Assembly: GCA_017458195.1 (NCBI GenBank)
Contig: JAFTGI010000199.1
Coordinates: 1 to 42,369 of the forward strand
Direction of reading: 5' to 3'
Length of the DNA stretch: 42,369 nt
Source: Prevotella sp.
GTDB taxonomy: Bacteria; Bacteroidota; Bacteroidia; Bacteroidales; Bacteroidaceae
How positions within the stretch are numbered: the first letter of the stretch is position 1; each line of letters opens with the position of its first letter. A program made the position numbers and the translations under genes. Positions 1,393 to 35,888 of the stretch are shown here, piece by piece. A model generated the notes under the pieces. That model saw nothing but the letters and a program-made list of their open reading frames with translations. It ran no database searches and had not been told where the DNA came from.

Positions 1393-1497
1393 GAAAAGCG
1401 GTGCTTTTCCACCAGAAAAGTACCGCTTTTCCCCGAGAAAAGTACCGCTTTTCCACAAGAGAAGCGGTACTTTTCTTCATTAAAAGCACCGCTTCTT
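1393..1497. repeat. Repeat array A: five 17-bp palindromic units, 22-bp period
   Basis: The units start at 1393, 1415, 1437, 1459 and 1481, exactly 22 bp apart, with 5-bp spacers (CACCA, CCCGA, CACAA, TTCAT). Units 1 and 4 read GAAAAGCGGTGCTTTTC and GAGAAGCGGTACTTTTC. Units 2 and 3 read in the opposite orientation as GAAAAGTACCGCTTTTC. Unit 5 is a degenerate reverse copy followed by TTTTT. The array fills the space between the ends of the convergent genes at 475-1380 and luxS, so it could act as a two-way terminator. It belongs to the same family as the arrays at 11599 and 34906. Confidence 0.92.
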
Positions 1498-9998: not shown

Positions 9999-10814
9999 AT
10001 GGACAAGATGGTATTGCTGCGCCCGTTTGCACTGTTGTTCGCTGTGCTGGTGCTTGCGTCGTGCAAGCATCAGCCGGCCGGCAGCGTGGACAACCAACCA
10101 AGGAATGAGACAGAAAGCCGCGAGGCCAAGCGGCTTCTGCAGGGCATCTGGCTGGAATCAGTCACCGAGGAGGTCATGTTCCGTGCAGAGGGCGACACCA
10201 TCTACTATCCCGATGCCTCCAGCCAGCCCACTCACTTCCGTATCGTCAACGACTCGCTGGAACTGGGGCGGCAACGCTATCCCATTCTGAAGCAGAGTGA
10301 GTATCAGTTCTGGTTTCAGAACCAAGGGGGTGATGTCGTCAAGCTTGTCAAGAGCGAGACGGCCGACGATAGCCTGGCCTTTGTGCACAATCAGCCGGAA
10401 ATCCTGTCGCTGTCCGAAGTGCTGAAGCTCGACTCGGTGGTGATGTACGAAGGTGAACGCTATCACTGGTATATCGCTGTCAACCCCACGAAATACCGCG
10501 TCCGTAAGGTCAGCTACAACGGCGAGGGCGTTGCCGTCGAAAATGTCTATTTCGACAACATCATCCACATCAGTCTTTTCCAGGGGAAGACTCAGCTCTT
10601 TTCCCGCGACTTCAACAAGCGGATGTATGGCGCCGACGTGCCCCAGGATTTTCTTGAGCAGGCCGTCCTGGGCAACATGCAGTTCGATCATGTCGACGCC
10701 AAGGGCTTCCACTTCAATGCCACCATCTGCATCCCCGACGGAGCGAGCTGCTATCTGGTGGAGACCCTCATCAACTTCAAGGGTGAAATGACTATGACGC
10801 TGCTGGAGTATTGA
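9999..10814 (+). CDS. Lipoprotein, DUF4738-like
   Basis: The 271-residue protein has a lipoprotein signal: hydrophobic residues 5-20 and a lipobox LASC with Cys22. The mature part is beta-rich, with two probable halves. A segment near 133-170 (EILSLSEVLKLD, then ERYHWYIAVNPTKYRV) recalls the Bacteroidetes DUF4738 family; I give that as likely, not certain. It starts 3 bp after ugd, so it is co-transcribed with sugar-nucleotide enzymes, but I infer no joint function. Its last 23 bp overlap the end of the convergent nudC. Confidence 0.78.
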   Translation: MDKMVLLRPFALLFAVLVLASCKHQPAGSVDNQPRNETESREAKRLLQGIWLESVTEEVMFRAEGDTIYYPDASSQPTHFRIVNDSLELGRQRYPILKQSEYQFWFQNQGGDVVKLVKSETADDSLAFVHNQPEILSLSEVLKLDSVVMYEGERYHWYIAVNPTKYRVRKVSYNGEGVAVENVYFDNIIHISLFQGKTQLFSRDFNKRMYGADVPQDFLEQAVLGNMQFDHVDAKGFHFNATICIPDGASCYLVETLINFKGEMTMTLLEY

Positions 10815-11571
10815 TCCAGTGGTCAATGAGACGCCGGGCTATGCTCAGTTTCTCAGGCAGTAGGGGCAGGTCGGTCCGCGTGAACCAACCTGCCTTTGTC
10901 AGTTCTTCGCGTTGCAGCCGGAGCGTACCGCCGGCATAGTCAGCGGTGAAGCCGACCATGAGGCCACTCGGATAAGGCCACGGTTGGGAGTCGAAGTATC
11001 GGATGTTCTCAATCTCAAGCCCCGTTTCTTCCCTCACTTCGCGGCGGACGGCTTCCTCCAGCGTTTCACCTGTCTCGACGAATCCGGCAATCAAGCCGTA
11101 GAAGTCGGTGCGGAAGTTGCGCCCATGGGCCAACAGCACCTCGTCGTTGCCACGGCGGATAAGTACAATGATGGCAATGGCCAGTTGCGGCCAGACCTCT
11201 TTTCCACAGTTCGTGCAGCGCTTGGAAATGTCAGTATGCAGCTTCATCGGGGCTCCGCAGACGCCGCAGAAACGGGTGTTCTGATCCCAGTAGAGCAGCT
11301 CGGCGCACTTGCCGGCCTTCTGGTAGAGCGCCTCCGGCAGCTTGTAGTAGCTCTGTCTGAGCGGGCACATCTCATACTCCGCCCGTCCTGTGACAGGCGC
11401 TTCCAGCGCGTAGGTCCTGACCTCATGGCCGTCAAGCGGTCCCGGATTGAGCATCTGCGTCCAGGGCTTCAGAGCAGTCGGCGGTTCGTCCCCGAGTGGG
11501 ATTGTATACGAACCGTCGTCATTTCGCTGAAGCAGGAGCGCATCCTTACAAAAAGCAAAGTAGTAATTCAT
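10792..11571 (-). CDS. nudC: NADH pyrophosphatase NudC (NAD+/NADH diphosphatase)
   Basis: A Nudix hydrolase of 259 residues that cleaves NAD(H) to NMN(H) and AMP; the family also removes NAD caps from RNA. The four zinc ligands Cys102, Cys105, Cys119 and Cys122 are present. The Nudix box runs from Gly163 to Leu185 (GFVETGET, then REVREETGL), and the NudC signature SQPWPYPSG is at 195-203. The ATG at 11571 is preferred over one three codons upstream because MNYYFAF is the more natural start. I see no clear promoter; array B fills the space between it and the upstream nucleotidase gene. The 3' end overlaps the convergent lipoprotein gene. Confidence 0.94.
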   Translation of the reverse strand: MNYYFAFCKDALLLQRNDDGSYTIPLGDEPPTALKPWTQMLNPGPLDGHEVRTYALEAPVTGRAEYEMCPLRQSYYKLPEALYQKAGKCAELLYWDQNTRFCGVCGAPMKLHTDISKRCTNCGKEVWPQLAIAIIVLIRRGNDEVLLAHGRNFRTDFYGLIAGFVETGETLEEAVRREVREETGLEIENIRYFDSQPWPYPSGLMVGFTADYAGGTLRLQREELTKAGWFTRTDLPLLPEKLSIARRLIDHWINTPAAS

Positions 11572-11598
11572 AATTATCAAAGCTGAGCTTTACTTGGA

Positions 11599-11703
11599 GA
11601 AAAGCGGTACTTTTCCGGGAGAAAAGCGGTACTTCTCTGGCAGAAAAGCGGTACTTTTCCGGGGGAAAAGCGGTGCTTTTCTTATACTAAAGCGCCGTTT
11701 CTC
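11599..11703. repeat. Repeat array B: five 17-bp palindromic units, 22-bp period
   Basis: Units start at 11599, 11621, 11643, 11665 and 11687. Units 1 and 3 are GAAAAGCGGTACTTTTC, unit 2 ends CTTCTC, and unit 4 has the GTGC core that makes a perfect 7-bp stem. Unit 5 (CTAAAGCGCCGTTTCTC) is degenerate and overlaps the final codons and TAG stop of the 5'-nucleotidase gene. All lie in the same orientation on the plus strand. The array occupies the gap between two minus-strand genes, so it is read as the 3' end of the nucleotidase transcript or the leader of nudC. Confidence 0.92.
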
Positions 11704-13447
11704 CGAAAACAAGCTTTCGGTCACGCTCAGCAGCGGGCTTGGTCCACTGCTCGGGCACGAACCGCCAGTTGTGGTTGGGAGCAGGGCTGACGCTTCCCAT
11801 CCGCTCGATTTCCTCCATCAGGTAGTGACGCAAGTCGAGGGGTGATTGATAGATGATGCGCTCGTCAATCTTCTCCTTGGGAATGCCGGCACCCTTGGTC
11901 AGCAGCTCGCCACCGCCGTTGCCGCGGTAGCTGTTCATCACGACGCGGTAGGTCTTCTGCTCGTCGAAGGGCTCGCCGTTCGACATGCGGAGAATGCGCA
12001 CCTTCTGTCCGTCGGGCTTGGTGACGTCCACCTCGTAGTCGATGCCGGCGGCAGAATCGAAGTTGAAGGTATAGTTGCGGAATCCCATGCGCTGCTGGTC
12101 GCCCCGCGATTCGTCGTTGAGCAGCAGCAGATGGTCGTCGGCCGAGCGCATCGTGTTCACCCAGCGGTCGTAGCTTTCCTCCAGATGACCGCGGATTTCG
12201 CGTCCCGTCAGTTTGAGGATATAGAGCTGGTTTTCAAAGCGATAAAGCTTAAACATGTCAGCCACCGTCACGTCGCCGGCCTTGATTTCCGAGTCGAAGG
12301 ACAGCGGCGCGTTGAAGCTGATGTCAGCTTTCGAAATCTGAAGCTGCAGGTTATGCACGAAGTCGGTGAAGGCCGAATTGCCGAAGTAGCTGTCCCGAGT
12401 GCGCGTCGTGTTCTCGAAACGGCCGATTCGTCGGCTGACATAATCCTTGATACGGTCAATCTGCGGCTGGAAGTGTTTCACCATAGCCTCGTCAATTGCC
12501 TCATCGCGCACACTGACGACGTCGCCCTTAATGTCCTTCCGTGTCAGTTTTCCGTTCGTATAGGTCAGCTCAATCTGCGCGTCGACCACGTTCAATGCCC
12601 AGCACGACGGGTCGAGAATCAGCACTTTCCGGCCCTCCGTGTTGGTCACCCACTGGTTGTGCTGCATGTGGTCGTGGCCGAAGAAGATGATGTCGAAGCC
12701 CGGCACCTCGCGCGCCACGCGCTCCGAGGCGTCCTCCTCAATGCCGCCAGGCATCGTGATGCCCCCCGACAGGCCACTGTGGAACAGGCCGAAGATAAGG
12801 TCGGCATGCTCCACCTCCCTGATGTGCTTCACCCATTGTCGGGCTGTCGCGACCATCTCGCGGAACTCTAGCCCCTGCCAGAGACTCTCGTTGAGCCAGC
12901 AGGGAATGGTGGGAGTCAGCATGCCGAGCACGGCAATCTTCACGCCGTCGCGTACGAAGATCTGGTAGGGGCGGACGTAGGGCTGCCCCGTTTCCTTGTC
13001 GACAATGTTGGCGCCGAGCATCGGGCAGCGCACCTCGCGGATCCACTTGTCGTAGACCGCATGCCCCGTCTCGACGTCGTGGTTGCCAAATGTCTCAGCA
13101 TCGTAGTTCATGTAGTTCACCACCTGTGCCGCAATGTTCTCGTCAGCGTTGCCCACGACGTAGTTCGACCAGTAGCACGTCGGCTGCCCCTGCAGGATGT
13201 CGCCGTTGTCAATAAGCAGCAGGCGGTCGCCATACTGCCTGCGCAGACGGTTGACATACGTGTTGACGCGGGCGAGCGTGCCCTTCAGCGGCTGTCCCTC
13301 GACGAAATCATAAGGGAAGAAGTGCCCGTGGACGTCGCTTGTCTCGACGACTCTCAGGCTGACGGTCTTGTTTTCCTGTGCCATAACTGATGTGGTGGCG
13401 ATGGTAAGCGCCATGGCTCCCAGAGCCGATGCCAATGTTTTTCTCAT
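11687..13447 (-). CDS. Periplasmic 5'-nucleotidase / 2',3'-cyclic phosphodiesterase-type metallophosphoesterase
   Basis: The protein has 586 residues with a signal peptide (cut near Ala23). The N-terminal calcineurin-like phosphoesterase domain has its metal motifs: Asp38 and His40 in SDVHGH, the NGDILQGQP segment at 81-89, GNHD at 121-124 and GHDHMQH. The C-terminal half is the UshA/CpdB substrate-binding domain (residues ~335-560), including FNAPLSFDSEIKAGDVTVAD and NSYRGNGGGELL. It should release phosphate from extracytoplasmic nucleotides; the exact substrate (5'-nucleotide or 2',3'-cyclic nucleotide) cannot be told. The ATG at 13447 is chosen over 13456 because it starts directly at the Arg-Lys of the signal peptide. 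The stop codon lies inside repeat array B. Confidence 0.92.
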   Translation of the reverse strand: MRKTLASALGAMALTIATTSVMAQENKTVSLRVVETSDVHGHFFPYDFVEGQPLKGTLARVNTYVNRLRRQYGDRLLLIDNGDILQGQPTCYWSNYVVGNADENIAAQVVNYMNYDAETFGNHDVETGHAVYDKWIREVRCPMLGANIVDKETGQPYVRPYQIFVRDGVKIAVLGMLTPTIPCWLNESLWQGLEFREMVATARQWVKHIREVEHADLIFGLFHSGLSGGITMPGGIEEDASERVAREVPGFDIIFFGHDHMQHNQWVTNTEGRKVLILDPSCWALNVVDAQIELTYTNGKLTRKDIKGDVVSVRDEAIDEAMVKHFQPQIDRIKDYVSRRIGRFENTTRTRDSYFGNSAFTDFVHNLQLQISKADISFNAPLSFDSEIKAGDVTVADMFKLYRFENQLYILKLTGREIRGHLEESYDRWVNTMRSADDHLLLLNDESRGDQQRMGFRNYTFNFDSAAGIDYEVDVTKPDGQKVRILRMSNGEPFDEQKTYRVVMNSYRGNGGGELLTKGAGIPKEKIDERIIYQSPLDLRHYLMEEIERMGSVSPAPNHNWRFVPEQWTKPAAERDRKLVFGETAL

Positions 13448-13473
13448 ACAGATCAATTATCTAAAATCAGCGG

Positions 13474-25967: not shown

Positions 25968-28370
25968 ATGAAAAGACTACTGACAACGCTATGCTTAGCG
26001 ACACTCGGATGCTGGACAATGGCTGTGGCTCAGCCTCGTTCGGTCGTGAACCTGAACTTTGGTTGGCGATTCCATGCCGGCGATGTGGAGAACGCAGCTG
26101 CCACGACGCTTGATGACTCCGCATGGCGCGTGGTCAACGTGCCACATGACTTTCAGATTGAGCAGCCCTGGGTAGCTCCCGGGGCCGACGAGAAGGCCGA
26201 CAACACGGACGTGGCTGCCAACATCAAGAGCCGTCTGTCGAGCCGTGGCTTCAAGGAAATGGGCCGTGGCTGGTATCGCCTCCACCTGACGCCTGCCGAC
26301 GAGTTACGCGGACGCCGTCTGTTGCTTGACTTCGGGGGCATCATGTATGTGGGCGATGTCTACCTTAATGGACAGCTCATCGGCGGCACCGACTATGGCT
26401 ACGTAGGGTTTGAAATCGACGTCACCGACAAGCTGAAGATTGGGCAGGAGAATGTCATAGCAGTCATGGCCGATACCCGCGAGCCTGGCAACTCGCGTTG
26501 GTACACCGGCGGCGGACTCTTCCGCGATGTCAAGCTCGTCAGCACGCCCAAGGATGTCTACTTCGGCCGTCATCCGCTCTATATTACCACACGCGAGAAT
26601 AAGTATGTCAACATCTCCGGTGAACTGACCAACCGCACCCGCCAGCCTGCACAGGTGCGTGTGCGCATCATGAATCCCGATGGCGAGCAGGTCTACGAGG
26701 AGAGCCGCTCGATTGCCCGCCACCAGATGGCCCGCACGCAGGAGGTGGCGCTGGTGGACGAGGTGACGATTGAGGACCCACAGCTCTGGGATCTCGATAC
26801 GCCGCGCCTCTACACTGTCGTCGCTCAGATATTGGGGCAGGACGGCTGGGTCGTAGATGAAGTCAGCGAGCATTTCGGCATTCACACCATCGAGATTGGC
26901 CCTGACTACGGATTGAAGCTCAATGGCCGGAAAGTGCTCCTGAAAGGCTATGCCAACCACCACACGCTGGGTGCCCTCGGTGCTGCCGCCTACCCGCGAG
27001 CCATCGAGAAGCGCCTGCAGCTGATGAAGCAATTCGGCATCAATCACATCCGCACCTCGCACAATCCCTATAGCCGCGAGTTCATCGAACTTTGCGACAA
27101 GTACGGCATACTCCTTGTAGATGAGCTCTACGACAAGTGGACACGCCAGCACACTGGAGGCCGCATCGCATTCGAACAGCACTGGCAGCGGGAGGTGCCC
27201 GAGTGGATCAAGCGCGACCGCAACTCACCATCGGTAGTGCTCTGGAGTCTCGGCAACGAGCTGCAGCAAGACCCCAACCAACCCTTCAACGACTTCGGCG
27301 TGACGATGTACCGACTGATGCGCCCACTCGTCAGCCGCTACGATTCTACCCGACTTGTTACCGTGGCCATGCATCCCCGCTACCGCAACTGGCAGACGGA
27401 TTCGCTACCCTGCGACCTGGCCATGCTGACCGACATTCAGGCATATAATTACAGATATATGTATTTCCCCGGTGACGGCCGCCGATTCCCATGGATGACC
27501 TTCTATCAGAGCGAGGCCAGTGTGGCCGCCATGGGCGAGAACTTCTTCGCCATGAATCTCGACAAGGTTATCGGCTTGGCCTATTGGGGCGCCATCGACT
27601 ACCTCGGCGAGAGCCAGGGTTGGCCTGCCAAGGGATGGTCACAGGGAGTCTTCGACATCTCGCTTGAACCGAAGCCTAAAGCCTTCTACATGAAATCGTT
27701 CTTCATGCCCGAGGAGGCCGTCGTCCATATTGCCGTCATCGACAAGAAGGGCGACCAGATGTGGAACGGCGTCCAGACAGGAAACGACGGTATGAGCGAC
27801 CATTGGAACCGCATTGAGGGACAGAAACTTTCGCTCGTCACCTACACCAACGCAGACGAGGTGGAGCTCGTGCTCAACGGCAAGTCGTTAGGCCGCCAAC
27901 AAAACGATGTGAAGAATGCCAAGATGCGCAATCAGATCCGTTGGAACGACATCATCTACAAGCCCGGAAAGCTTGAGGCTATTGCCCGCACAGCAGGAAA
28001 AGTGGTTGCCCGCCACGCCATAGAGACCACGACGGAGGCAACAAAACTGATTGCCGAAGCTGACCAACAAGCATGGAAAGCTGACGGACAAGACCTGCAG
28101 CACGTGCGCATCGTGGCCGTCGACAAGAAAGGGCGCCGCGTGCAGACAACTGACGCCGATGTGAATTTCTCCATCAGTGGTAACGCCGAGATTGTAGGTG
28201 TCATCAACGGCGACATCAATTCCGATGAAATGACTGTCGGTAATCATCGCCGCCTATACAACGGTACATGCACCGTCATTCTTCGTAGTACACGTGAGGC
28301 GGGCCCGATTACCTTAACAGCCACGACCTCAGGCCTTAAGCCCATTACGTTGAAGATGCAGACGAATTAA
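25968..28370 (+). CDS. GH2 glycoside hydrolase (beta-galactosidase type)
   Basis: The 800-residue secreted enzyme has a signal peptide (cut near Ala21). Domain order follows GH2: a sugar-binding jelly roll (~25-195), an Ig-like domain (~200-305), a TIM barrel (~310-600) and C-terminal beta-domains (~610-800). Catalytic acid/base Glu431 is in WSLGNELQQ and the nucleophile is Glu516 in FYQSEAS. The motif GANHH-like NHH (330-332) and IRTSHNPYS fit beta-galactosidases. It probably removes galactose from pectic side chains alongside the GH28 enzyme encoded 1 bp upstream. Beta-glucuronidase activity is a less likely alternative. Confidence 0.92.
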   Translation: MKRLLTTLCLATLGCWTMAVAQPRSVVNLNFGWRFHAGDVENAAATTLDDSAWRVVNVPHDFQIEQPWVAPGADEKADNTDVAANIKSRLSSRGFKEMGRGWYRLHLTPADELRGRRLLLDFGGIMYVGDVYLNGQLIGGTDYGYVGFEIDVTDKLKIGQENVIAVMADTREPGNSRWYTGGGLFRDVKLVSTPKDVYFGRHPLYITTRENKYVNISGELTNRTRQPAQVRVRIMNPDGEQVYEESRSIARHQMARTQEVALVDEVTIEDPQLWDLDTPRLYTVVAQILGQDGWVVDEVSEHFGIHTIEIGPDYGLKLNGRKVLLKGYANHHTLGALGAAAYPRAIEKRLQLMKQFGINHIRTSHNPYSREFIELCDKYGILLVDELYDKWTRQHTGGRIAFEQHWQREVPEWIKRDRNSPSVVLWSLGNELQQDPNQPFNDFGVTMYRLMRPLVSRYDSTRLVTVAMHPRYRNWQTDSLPCDLAMLTDIQAYNYRYMYFPGDGRRFPWMTFYQSEASVAAMGENFFAMNLDKVIGLAYWGAIDYLGESQGWPAKGWSQGVFDISLEPKPKAFYMKSFFMPEEAVVHIAVIDKKGDQMWNGVQTGNDGMSDHWNRIEGQKLSLVTYTNADEVELVLNGKSLGRQQNDVKNAKMRNQIRWNDIIYKPGKLEAIARTAGKVVARHAIETTTEATKLIAEADQQAWKADGQDLQHVRIVAVDKKGRRVQTTDADVNFSISGNAEIVGVINGDINSDEMTVGNHRRLYNGTCTVILRSTREAGPITLTATTSGLKPITLKMQTN

Positions 28371-28429
28371 AAAGTGGCGCTTCTTGAAGGTAATATACCC
28401 CTATATTACTTTCGAGAAGCGCCATTTTC
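28369..28429. terminator. Long stem-loop between GH2 and rsmD, probable bidirectional terminator
   Basis: Near-perfect inverted repeat: arm 28370-28397 and arm 28402-28428 with a CCCC loop, one bulge and two positions that become G-U pairs in RNA. A-rich and T-rich flanks make it suitable as a terminator for both convergent genes. The outer arms (AAAAGTGGCGCTTCTT and GAGAAGCGCCATTTTC) resemble the 17-bp array unit in opposite orientations, about 45 bp apart. Confidence 0.75.
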
Positions 28430-32974: not shown

Positions 32975-34061
32975 TGCGGGCAGCGTTTAGCGGTGCTTGT
33001 TCCTTGCCGAGCCGGCGATGCACTTCCTCATAGCCTTCAAGCATCTCCTGACGGGCTGGCCCGTTGAGGATTTTCTCAAGCTCACTGCGGATGTTGGCAA
33101 TGCTGAACGAGTCGGCCACGAGTTCGCGCACCACCTCGCGGTCGGCAATAAGGTTAACCAGCGAGATGTAGCGCACCTTCAATATCTTCTTTCGCAGATA
33201 GCCGATAAGACGGGGCAGAGGTGTCTCATAGCAAACCACCTGAGGCACGCCGAACAGGGCCGTCTCGAGGGTGGCAGTACCACTGGTGACTAAGGCGGCA
33301 TGTGCCGTCGAAAGCAGTTCGTAGGTGCGGTTCTTCACCAGCTGCACGTCGCTTCCCTCAATGAATTTCGCGTAGTAATCTTCGTCAATGCCTGGGGCTC
33401 CGGCCAGCATCAGGTCGTAGTCAGCTGAGAGTTGTCTCGTAGCCTCGATCATGGCGGGCAGGTTGTCCTTGATCTCTTGCCGGCGCGAACCGGCCAGCAA
33501 GGCGATGACGGGTCGTGGCCGCTGTCCTGCGTCGGCATTTGCAGCCTTAAATTCAGCCACCTCGTCGGCCGTCGGATTACCGACATAATGGATAGGATAG
33601 TGGTGCTTGCCCTCGAAGAATGCAACCTCGAAGGGCAGGATGGAGAACAGTTCGTCGACGTCGCGCTTGATGCTCTTGATGCGATATTCCTTCCACGCCC
33701 AGATCTTCGGCGAAATATAATAATAGATCGGACAGACACCGCGGCGGTGCACATACTTGGCGATGCTGAGGTTAAAGCCCGGATAGTCGACTAGTATAAC
33801 CACGTCGGGCCGCCACGCCTCGATGTCGTGCTTGCACCGGCTCATATTGCCCAGAATGGTGGGCAGGTGGAGCAGGACGGGCACGAAACCCATGTAGGCC
33901 AGCTCACGATAATGGCGGACCAACGTGCCACCCTCAGCCTGCATCAGGTCGCCCCCGATGCAACGGAACTGTGCATCAGGGTCTTCCGTCCGCAACGCCC
34001 GCATCAGTCGCGAGGCATGGAGGTCGCCACTGGCCTCACCGGCTATCAGATAATACCTCAT
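32925..34061 (-). CDS. lpxB: Lipid-A-disaccharide synthase
   Basis: LpxB joins UDP-2,3-diacylglucosamine and lipid X into the lipid A disaccharide at the inner membrane. The protein has 378 residues from the ATG at 34061 (MRYYLIAGEASGDLH, 1-15), a standard N-terminus for the family. Other conserved segments are IYYYISPKIWAWKEYRIKSI, VGNPTAD, LAGSRRQEI and LVTSGTATLETALFGVPQVV. A longer ATG-initiated frame runs upstream, but it is just the frame inside surE. The start overlaps the surE stop by 4 bp (ATGA), so surE and lpxB are coupled. The 3' end overlaps the convergent transporter gene by 50 bp. Confidence 0.95.
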   Translation of the reverse strand: MRYYLIAGEASGDLHASRLMRALRTEDPDAQFRCIGGDLMQAEGGTLVRHYRELAYMGFVPVLLHLPTILGNMSRCKHDIEAWRPDVVILVDYPGFNLSIAKYVHRRGVCPIYYYISPKIWAWKEYRIKSIKRDVDELFSILPFEVAFFEGKHHYPIHYVGNPTADEVAEFKAANADAGQRPRPVIALLAGSRRQEIKDNLPAMIEATRQLSADYDLMLAGAPGIDEDYYAKFIEGSDVQLVKNRTYELLSTAHAALVTSGTATLETALFGVPQVVCYETPLPRLIGYLRKKILKVRYISLVNLIADREVVRELVADSFSIANIRSELEKILNGPARQEMLEGYEEVHRRLGKEQAPLNAARIMRRLLTSASAKSQQN

Positions 34062-34831
34062 TTTTCCCAATCCTTCATCTGCCGCAAGGCTTCGTAGGCC
34101 GTCACGTCGATGGTCGTAGGCGTGATGGCGATATAGCCGTGCTGCAATGCCCAGTTGTCGGTGTCGTCGCTCTCGGGCTCGTCGTTCTGGTAGGTGCCCA
34201 CCATCCAGTAGTAGTCGTAGCCGCGCGGATGGTGGCATTTGCGCAATTCGTTGGTCCACGAAGCCTCGGCCATCCGGCATACTCTGACCCCGCTGAAGGC
34301 TTCGACCACCGGGAAGTTGATGTTCAGGCAGACGCCCTTAGGCAGTCCTTCGGCCAGCACGCGGCGGGTGAACTCGACGATGTAGGGGCGCAGCGGCTCG
34401 AAGTCGGCATCAGCACGATGGTCACAGATAGAAAAGGCCACCGAAGGAATATACTTCATGCAGCCTTCAATGGTGACGCCCATCGTGCCGCTGTAGTGGG
34501 AATTCACCGAGGCATTGTCGCCGTGGTTGATGCCACCGATGACCATGTCTGGACGGCGGTCGGTTATGATTTCAGCCAGAGCCATTTTCACGCAGTCGAC
34601 AGGTGTGCCGTTGCACGACCAGATCTCCACGCCCTCACGTCGCTGGCGAAGGGTCAGCAGCAGGGGCGTAGTGGCAGAGAAGGCGCACGAGAAGCCTGAA
34701 CGGGGACCTTCTGGGGCGCAGACGACGATGTCGGCCATGGGGCTGAGCATGTCAACGAGGCAGTTGATGCCCCGGGCTTCATAGCCGTCGTCATTGGAAA
34801 TCAGTATAAGGGGTCTTGAGGGTTTTGCCAT
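34058..34831 (-). CDS. surE: 5'/3'-nucleotidase SurE
   Basis: The 257-residue SurE phosphatase dephosphorylates nucleoside monophosphates and is associated with stationary-phase survival. The metal-binding Asp14 and Asp15 lie in LISNDDGYEARG, a further motif is PRSGFSCAFS (with the conserved Ser), and the Asn of GGINHGDN completes the site. The downstream VNSHYSGTMGVTIEG segment is also typical. It is translationally coupled to lpxB. Its promoter is good, and repeat array C lies just upstream of the -33 box, so the array could modulate it. Confidence 0.96.
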   Translation of the reverse strand: MAKPSRPLILISNDDGYEARGINCLVDMLSPMADIVVCAPEGPRSGFSCAFSATTPLLLTLRQRREGVEIWSCNGTPVDCVKMALAEIITDRRPDMVIGGINHGDNASVNSHYSGTMGVTIEGCMKYIPSVAFSICDHRADADFEPLRPYIVEFTRRVLAEGLPKGVCLNINFPVVEAFSGVRVCRMAEASWTNELRKCHHPRGYDYYWMVGTYQNDEPESDDTDNWALQHGYIAITPTTIDVTAYEALRQMKDWEK

Positions 34832-34905: not shown

Positions 34906-35010
34906 ACAAAGCGGTACTTTAAGGCGAGAAAAGCGGTACTTTTCCCCCAGAGAAGCGGTACTTTTCTCAGAGAAAAGCGGTACTTTTCCCGGGGAAAAGC
35001 GGTGCTTTTC
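34906..35010. repeat. Repeat array C: five 17-bp palindromic units, 22-bp period
   Basis: Units start at 34906, 34928, 34950, 34972 and 34994. Unit 1 is degenerate (ACAAAGCGGTACTTTAA). Units 2 and 4 are GAAAAGCGGTACTTTTC, unit 3 has GAGAAG, and unit 5 has the GTGC core giving a perfect 7-bp stem followed by TTTT. All read in the same orientation on the plus strand. The array lies in the 290-bp divergent gap between surE and parA. The stretch from 35011 to the parA promoter holds no other motif I recognise. Confidence 0.92.
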
Positions 35011-35120: not shown

Positions 35121-35888
35121 ATGGGAAAAATAATAGCATTAGCCAATCAGAAGGGAGGCGTCGGGAAAACCACCACGACGATCAACCTGGCTGCATCGCT
35201 GGCAACACTTGAAAAGAAGGTACTTGTGGTCGACGCCGACCCTCAGGCCAACGCCTCGAGCGGACTGGGCGTAGACATCAAGGAGGTGGAGTGCTCGCTC
35301 TATGAATGCATCACCAATCATACCGACGTGCGCGACGCCATCTATATGACTGACATTGACGGACTTGAAATCGTGCCGAGTCACATCGACCTGGTGGGCG
35401 CTGAGATAGAGATGCTCAACATTGAGAACCGTGAGCGCGTGGTGAAGCGCCTGCTTGAACCCGTGCGCGATGAGTACGACTATATACTCATCGACTGTTC
35501 GCCCTCGTTGGGACTCATCACGGTGAATGCCCTGACGGCAGCCGACTCGGTCATCATCCCCGTGCAGTGCGAATACTTTGCCCTTGAGGGAATTTCGAAA
35601 TTGCTCAACACCATCAAGATCATCAAATCGCGGCTCAACCCTAAACTCGAGATCGAAGGCTTCCTTCTGACGATGTACGACTCACGCCTGCGTCTGGCTA
35701 ACCAGATCTACGACGAGGTGAAGCGTCACTTCCAGGAACTGGTGTTCAAGACCGTCATTCAGCGCAACGTCAAGCTCTCGGAAAGTCCCTCACACGGTCT
35801 GCCCGTCATCCTCTACGATGCCGACTCTACCGGCTCAAAGAATCATCTTGCCCTGGCAAAGGAAATAATCAGTAAAAACCTGAAATAA
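35121..35888 (+). CDS. parA: ParA/Soj chromosome-partition ATPase
   Basis: The 255-residue ATPase acts with ParB in origin segregation. The deviant Walker A is KGGVGKTTT (11-19), the Asp in VVDADPQANAS (~40) belongs to the A' motif, and IDCSPSLG the Walker B. There is no N-terminal extension, as in chromosomal Soj-type ParA. A longer in-frame ORF begins at 35019, but the extra residues come from the leader and precede the promoter, so ATG at 35121 is chosen. The stop TAA overlaps the ParB start (TAATG). Repeat array C lies just upstream. Confidence 0.97.
   Translation: MGKIIALANQKGGVGKTTTTINLAASLATLEKKVLVVDADPQANASSGLGVDIKEVECSLYECITNHTDVRDAIYMTDIDGLEIVPSHIDLVGAEIEMLNIENRERVVKRLLEPVRDEYDYILIDCSPSLGLITVNALTAADSVIIPVQCEYFALEGISKLLNTIKIIKSRLNPKLEIEGFLLTMYDSRLRLANQIYDEVKRHFQELVFKTVIQRNVKLSESPSHGLPVILYDADSTGSKNHLALAKEIISKNLK

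Follow-up and report, generated by a model that had tools for sequence, protein, structure and literature searches.

REP elements, as described in the accounts drawn on here, carry a GTAG (or CGTC) tag that marks one end of their palindrome (PMC3733652), and BIMEs are reported, in the excerpted source, to bind gyrase and IHF (PMC2817692). The partial account of BrickBuilt, a MITE minisatellite of Porphyromonas gingivalis, describes a 23-nt tandem repeat that occupies 19 intergenic places per genome and consists of 1 to about 23 repeats without spacers, accompanied by a leader and a tail with IS5-type ends (PMC4596501). In the portions of the literature surveyed, most interspersed palindromes are those of Proteobacteria, and what they do is a matter of continuing debate. 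Porphyromonas gingivalis, like Prevotella, belongs to the Bacteroidales. The iterons of plasmid R6K are 22 bp long and lie in several copies about two helical turns apart, where an initiator protein binds them next to one another; in iteron origins, the replication initiator gene resides beside the iterons.

The window, that is, the whole 42,369-nucleotide stretch of Prevotella DNA analysed here, lies on contig 68 of a 3.19-Mb draft genome (238 contigs, 76% complete; G000 in what follows) and contains three arrays of 17-bp palindromic units. Array A (1393..1497) is composed of five such units at a 22-bp step in the orientations + - - + -, and is located in the convergent gap between a 301-aa ORF without a Pfam match (475-1380, + strand) and luxS (1528-2022, - strand). 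Array B (11577..11703) has four good units (11599-11681) and diverged, in-register units at 11577, where AAAG and CTTT are intact, and at 11687. Its gap is co-directional, between a NUDIX gene (10792-11580, - strand) and a 5'-nucleotidase/metallophosphatase gene (11687-13456, - strand), and these ORF calls, at their ends, run into the two outer units. Array C (34906..35010) contains five units, all in one orientation, and resides in the divergent gap between surE (34058-34831, - strand) and parA (35121-35888, + strand, with the ATG at 35121 taken as the start). These arrays are real and far beyond chance: 12 window units lie within 3 mismatches of the consensus, as compared with 0.11 expected from 100 dinucleotide shuffles. 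The earlier note on this DNA had described palindromes at 1393, 11599 and 34906 with 6-bp arms, an asymmetric CGGTA/CGGTG core, 5-bp spacers and a 22-bp step, mixed unit orientation in array A and three gap types, all of which is correct for the window. It had also called the arrays identical, which they are not, as array A has four good units and a diverged fifth, array C four good units and a diverged first, and array B four to six units. Two familiar classes were considered and rejected: a known RNA family, there being 0 Rfam matches in the window at the gathering cut-off, and CRISPR, in which direct repeats of at least 23 bp alternate with unique spacers of about 30 bp, as against a 17-bp unit, a 5-bp spacer and a 22-bp step here. 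No description of such arrays was recognised in the open-licence literature, as represented mostly by titles and listings.

The arrays belong to a family that extends throughout the genome and into other genomes of the genus. The sequence AAAGCGGTRCTTYTC has 143 matches at no more than one mismatch in G000, versus 0 for the reversed control, and the possibility raised in the earlier note that the unit occurs by chance only is not the case. For a closer view, 52 stretches of G000 taken around array matches and three others from the matches listed (100 of the 143) were combined with the window, giving 401 kb selected for arrays rather than drawn at random. This material contains 48 unit clusters, 40 of which have three or more units. 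Among the 33 clusters from the fetched stretches with at least three units and 22-bp steps only, 5 have three units, 16 have four and 12 have five, such that a fixed five-unit rule is rejected; of the fixed five-unit, 22-bp architecture that had been proposed, the step alone stands. Internal 44-bp duplications are present within three G000 arrays (L040, L053 and L067). In some other genomes (L117, L127 and L222), the arrays form part of a more extended conserved module, in which GAATTTTC-TTTACAT-like repeats flank them on either side.

Of 299 genomes from the genus, 45 contain the triple pattern (AAAG-N5-CTTT)x3 at 22 bp, one of them in as many as 135 overlapping matches, whereas the reversed control matches four genomes, one to three times each. 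The reversed-control match in G000 can be explained by CTTTTC-N5-GAAAAG across spacers. In the other three genomes, G094, G018 and G083, this control, (TTTC-N5-GAAA)x3 at 22 bp, has 3, 1 and 1 matches, respectively, which are not expected by chance for 24 fixed bases and possibly represent a further palindrome family on a 22-bp lattice. A draw of 395 genomes from the phylum gave 2 AAAG-triple matches, both in the same genus, and absence from sister genera is thinly supported, as the draw included no more than three further genomes from the family. The core N5 varies by species (CGGTA/CGGTG in G000, CTATG and GGCTG in G012, GTTAT in G010), and array length is alike in three species with different cores, four to five units being commonest. 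A phage origin was rejected; among viral contigs, the AAAG triple occurs in 3 stretches on 2 contigs, and a second pattern, the GTACA pair described below, in 3 stretches on 3.

The fixed feature of these arrays is the 22-bp step, not the number of units. When the gap was left free (steps of 16-37 bp), the step was 22 bp in 75/75 forward pairs from G293 and G010 and in 50/50 from G012, among the matches listed; the free-gap pair search ran on nine genomes (73 to 278 pairs each), two of which supplied its listed matches, and the forward matches were counted by eye. With a looser triple pattern, both steps were 22 bp in all 50 forward triples of G041 among the matches listed. The same pattern in G297 gave 22-bp steps in 21 of 25 listed triples, the other four coming from a single expanded array with a 24-bp step. 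Pooled, the step is kept in 175/175 listed matches from G293, G010, G012 and G041, and the fixed phasing claimed earlier is thus borne out in these four genomes and, at 21/25, largely in G297. In a pattern-free scan of all loci for four or more palindromes, the 146 clusters obtained at 22 bp had no counterpart at steps of 16-21 or 23-40 bp, in a set of loci that is redundant and mostly picked by the 22-bp pattern. In two 200-kb stretches, chosen for the arrays that they share and scanned whole, 15 and 11 triples have a 22-bp step, and each of the remaining steps between 17 and 33 bp has 4 or fewer.

In Prevotella genomes, this layout is not confined to a single palindrome, and unrelated ones have it as well. 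The pair pattern GTACA-N7-TGTAC-N5-GTACA-N7-TGTAC has 106 matches in G000 and occurs in 16 of the 299 genus genomes (control, 0). Its palindrome, GTACAT-N5-ATGTAC, is unrelated in sequence to the AAAG family of the same genome, and has the same arrangement of 17 bp plus 5 bp. In the fetched G000 loci, these arrays consist of exactly three units at a 22-bp step in 7/7 cases (L048:4034, L056:398, L057:1621, L064:4095, L065:286, L077:6784 and L245:1501), and longer arrays exist in some other genomes, such as one of five units in G119. Those in L048, L056 and L064 adjoin an AAAG array. A third palindrome, TCYAG-CCC-CTRGA (TCYAGCCCCTRGA), directly follows an AAAG array at one site, keeping to its 22-bp register, in G278 (L093) and at the orthologous L113. 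A fourth, TATACAC-T-GTGTATA (TATACACTGTGTATA), forms a 22-bp palindrome array at one site, L282 (G041 C16, about 147835-147896), inside an 8.6-kb segment that has no alignment to the G297 stretch.

A comparison of close relatives indicates which parts of the array are constrained. The aligned DNA of G041 and G297 has an identity of about 96%, and the changes between the two amount to 2/198 in arms, 6/165 in cores, 10/196 in outer arms, 20/163 in spacers and 119/1071 in flanks (arm versus spacer, p = 6e-6, with arm divergence lowered somewhat by the picking of units by exact AAG/CTT in either genome; spacer versus flank, p = 0.69). By these site counts, the spacers drift like their surroundings and the arms hardly change. 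Three comparisons of single arrays are too small to add much: G278/L113 (arms 3/36, spacers 11/30) agrees with arm constraint, G017/G084 (0/24 and 3/20) agrees weakly, and in G293/G012 (4/30 and 5/25) it is not seen. Hence the earlier argument from conserved arms and variable spacers to selection for protein binding is upheld in its first half mainly by one species pair, in which arms change far less than spacers, although G293/G012 fails to reproduce it.

The placement of the arrays bears on what they might do for neighbouring genes. Genes were called with a home-made codon-score finder at loci all chosen for having arrays, and the 43 G000 arrays counted here were measured by span and so include three composite stem-loops (L061, L066 and L075, of a type described below) beyond the 40 clusters. 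Of these, 18 lie in co-directional gaps, 15 in convergent and 4 in divergent ones, 3 overlap a predicted ORF (7/48 clusters by an alternative criterion) and 3 lie at an edge. The distance to a gene 3' end in G000 is at most 40 bp in 35/48 cases, and the distance to a 5' end is greater than 60 bp in 23/26. Among 35 arrays in G293 (16 co-directional, 8 convergent, 11 divergent), the pull to gene ends is weaker, and 5'-end distances exceed 60 bp in 37/38. The pull is not seen among the 20 arrays of G012 (11 co-directional, 1 convergent, 7 divergent, one at an edge), where 3'-end distances range from 38 to 662 bp and 5'-end distances exceed 60 bp in 25/25. Cooperative repressors typically bind phased arrays of palindromes, and the arrays could on those grounds be operators through which a classical regulator controls the adjacent genes. 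However, the long distances to start codons, the 15/43 G000 arrays in convergent gaps and the functionally unrelated neighbours of the window arrays make this very improbable.

A further possibility, put forward earlier as a five-hairpin RNA, is that the arrays act as RNA or single-stranded hairpins, in the form of 3'-UTR structures or processing or termination signals. The frequent location of G000 arrays directly after stop codons is in keeping with this, and all three window arrays fold better as RNA than shuffled sequences on both strands (z -3.1 to -11.9, array A being best at -11.9), which keeps the reading alive but does not favour it. A design for pairing is nevertheless lacking in the G000 arrays. 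Mirror units have opposite orientations in 22/61 pairs, as compared with 20.7 expected, and in tandem arrays core positions 1/5 pair in 31 of 94 cases (49.6 expected) and positions 2/4 in 2 of 94 (46.6 expected). Core pairing is below chance, with z values to -9.2, as it must be for an asymmetric core read in both orientations. The outer column pair -2/+14 is paired somewhat more often than expected in G000 (70 of 94 cases, 64.4 expected, z 2.5), with no such excess in G293, G010 or G012. The orientation of units relative to transcription is mixed, at 41 sense and 27 antisense in 17 co-directional arrays. Moreover, divergent gaps hold 4/43, 11/35 and 7/20 of the arrays in G000, G293 and G012, respectively, and tandem hairpins need no strict 22-bp step.

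The pairing test itself is capable of seeing pairing, as is evident from a related composite stem-loop in the same genome. The window copy (28371..28428) resides in a convergent gap, directly after a stop codon ending at 28370, and comprises two AAG...CTT half-elements around AATATACCCCTATATT. There are 18 copies in the 401 kb of array-selected G000 sequence, with the centre AATATA(CCCC/GGGG)TATATT. Their left and right arms change in a complementary manner, such that position 14 is paired in 15/18 copies (9.3 expected) and position 17 in 13 (8.3 expected); positions 3 and 7 are below expectation unless G-U pairs are counted. Although these compensatory pairs lend some weight to RNA structure in a related element, hairpin arrays are rejected for want of orientation symmetry and core pairing, and such a role seems improbable despite the good folding of single arrays.

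Taken together, the fixed step, which equals two helical turns, the constraint on the arms, the drift of the spacers and the lack of hairpin design are what would be expected if a protein bound adjacent palindromes in a row. The reading that we tentatively prefer, at somewhat less than an even chance, is that the arrays are intergenic, BIME-like platforms with multiple, helically phased sites for a putative dimeric DNA-binding protein. Each putative dimer would read one AAAG-N5-CTTT palindrome, and neighbouring dimers, 22 bp or two helical turns apart, would lie on one face of the DNA, where three to five of them could assemble into a small filament or wrapped complex. Such platforms would be distributed over numerous gaps between genes, at a distance from start codons and, in G000, mostly just after gene ends. 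Rather than serving as operators of single genes, they may behave like the BIMEs of E. coli and maintain the topology of the local DNA, or else insulate or organise the chromosome. The bound protein, its cooperative assembly and the topological or organising role are what we infer from the arrangement of the sequence; no binding protein for the arrays was found. As the AAAG triple is present in only 45/299 genomes, any function must be dispensable or be performed otherwise elsewhere. A broader and more doubtful conjecture is that AAAG-N5-CTTT, GTACAT-N5-ATGTAC, TCYAG-CCC-CTRGA and TATACAC-T-GTGTATA are exchangeable palindromes of a chromosome-wide, helically phased docking system built on a single 22-bp lattice. 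If true, this would imply either that a family of DNA-binding proteins co-evolves or that the lattice is imposed on the chromosome by one assembly.

The history of individual sites can be followed among relatives. Where flanking genes with at least 70% protein identity adjoin arrays in both of two genomes, the array is on the same side in 13/13 gene pairs from 10 locus pairs, one of which is a probable recent transfer; over all flanking-gene matches, the figure is 16/20. In a 200-kb stretch of G041, 7 of 11 array clusters have a counterpart in G297 within DNA that aligns at high identity; the others comprise one in a paralogous alignment at 66%, one that has expanded in G297 and two in unshared segments. 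At about 83% identity, three G000 sites can be compared with G041 and G297: the L035 array is present in all three genomes, and those at L053 and L080 are present only in G000. The surE-parA site was sought in 23 genomes that have AAAG triples and 7 that lack them, and all of these 30 but G065 and G039 were readable. In 27 of these 28, the 420 bp upstream of parA contain no array, including G297 and G041, the closest by ParA (98% and 97%). Only G188 has a (loose) array there, and conservation at this site is rejected. Arrays are thus inherited over short times and turn over during longer ones, being shared at about 96% identity and mostly not at about 83% or at parA, so that the positional conservation anticipated in the earlier note is found among close relatives (7/11 arrays), at one of three sites at greater distance, and not at parA. 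An array-bearing segment of about 5 kb (L153/L203) is 99% identical between G293 and G012, in which two other loci are about 86% identical, and probably represents a recent transfer.

This turnover is also what might be expected of selfish short repeats, the strongest rival reading, in which mini-elements are spread and lengthened by a putative enzyme or by slippage, with no benefit to the host. The palindrome recognition of such an enzyme would account for the conserved arms and the step. Patchy occurrence (45/299), species-specific cores, the internal 44-bp duplications, local expansion in G297 and the discrete three-unit GTACAT elements of G000 (7/7) are all consistent with it. However, the arms are conserved in arrays already common to two relatives. 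Among 80 flank segments of 40 G000 arrays there are 15 matches, 9 of them, including all the strong ones, between neighbouring GTACAT arrays, and 6 short and weak; with no leader or tail in common, a MITE is rejected for G000. RAYT/IS200 as the maker of the arrays is likewise rejected, because PF01797, which covers all Y1_Tnp proteins and not RAYTs alone, shows no association, being present in 9/15 genomes with arrays and in 8/15 without the AAAG triple (one of which, G055, has GTACA pairs). Nor was it found in G012, G078 or G247, which are array-rich and at least 97% complete. Overall, a selfish origin appears rather unlikely, and the platform reading remains the one that we prefer.

With respect to known systems, the arrays share with BrickBuilt, as far as the source excerpt describes it, an intergenic tandem repeat of similar length, but differ in their palindromic units, 5-bp spacers, 22-bp step, mostly three to five copies and absence of a common leader or tail (PMC4596501). 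They also differ from plasmid iterons in occupying dozens of chromosomal sites; ParA/ParB are encoded beside array C, and no rep gene is among the 18 window proteins scanned. The likeness to REP/BIME elements, on the partial accounts of these, is closer, involving short extragenic palindromes of high copy number, regular grouping, mixed orientations, a mosaic of families and species specificity (PMC2817692, PMC3733652). High-copy, regularly grouped extragenic palindromes are indeed what G000 contains (143 matches versus 0; 40 clusters; 3/43 overlapping an ORF). What sets the Prevotella arrays apart is one strict 22-bp step common to unrelated families, with conserved arms and drifting spacers, and the units, read directly, do not have the GTAG/CGTC tag. 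Binding of gyrase, IHF or Pol I is a further trait of REP/BIME membership. Because the tag and the link to a Y1 transposase are not found, the arrays are classified, by analogy, as probably working like a BIME and not as a BIME. The fixed helical step, constrained arms and drifting spacers make array DNA a directly testable bait for a protein, and if one lattice truly serves several unrelated palindromes, it could point to a common architecture of chromosome-organising proteins in this group. In sum, the arrays look like multi-site docking strips for a putative DNA-binding protein, for which REP/BIME elements are the closest known kind.
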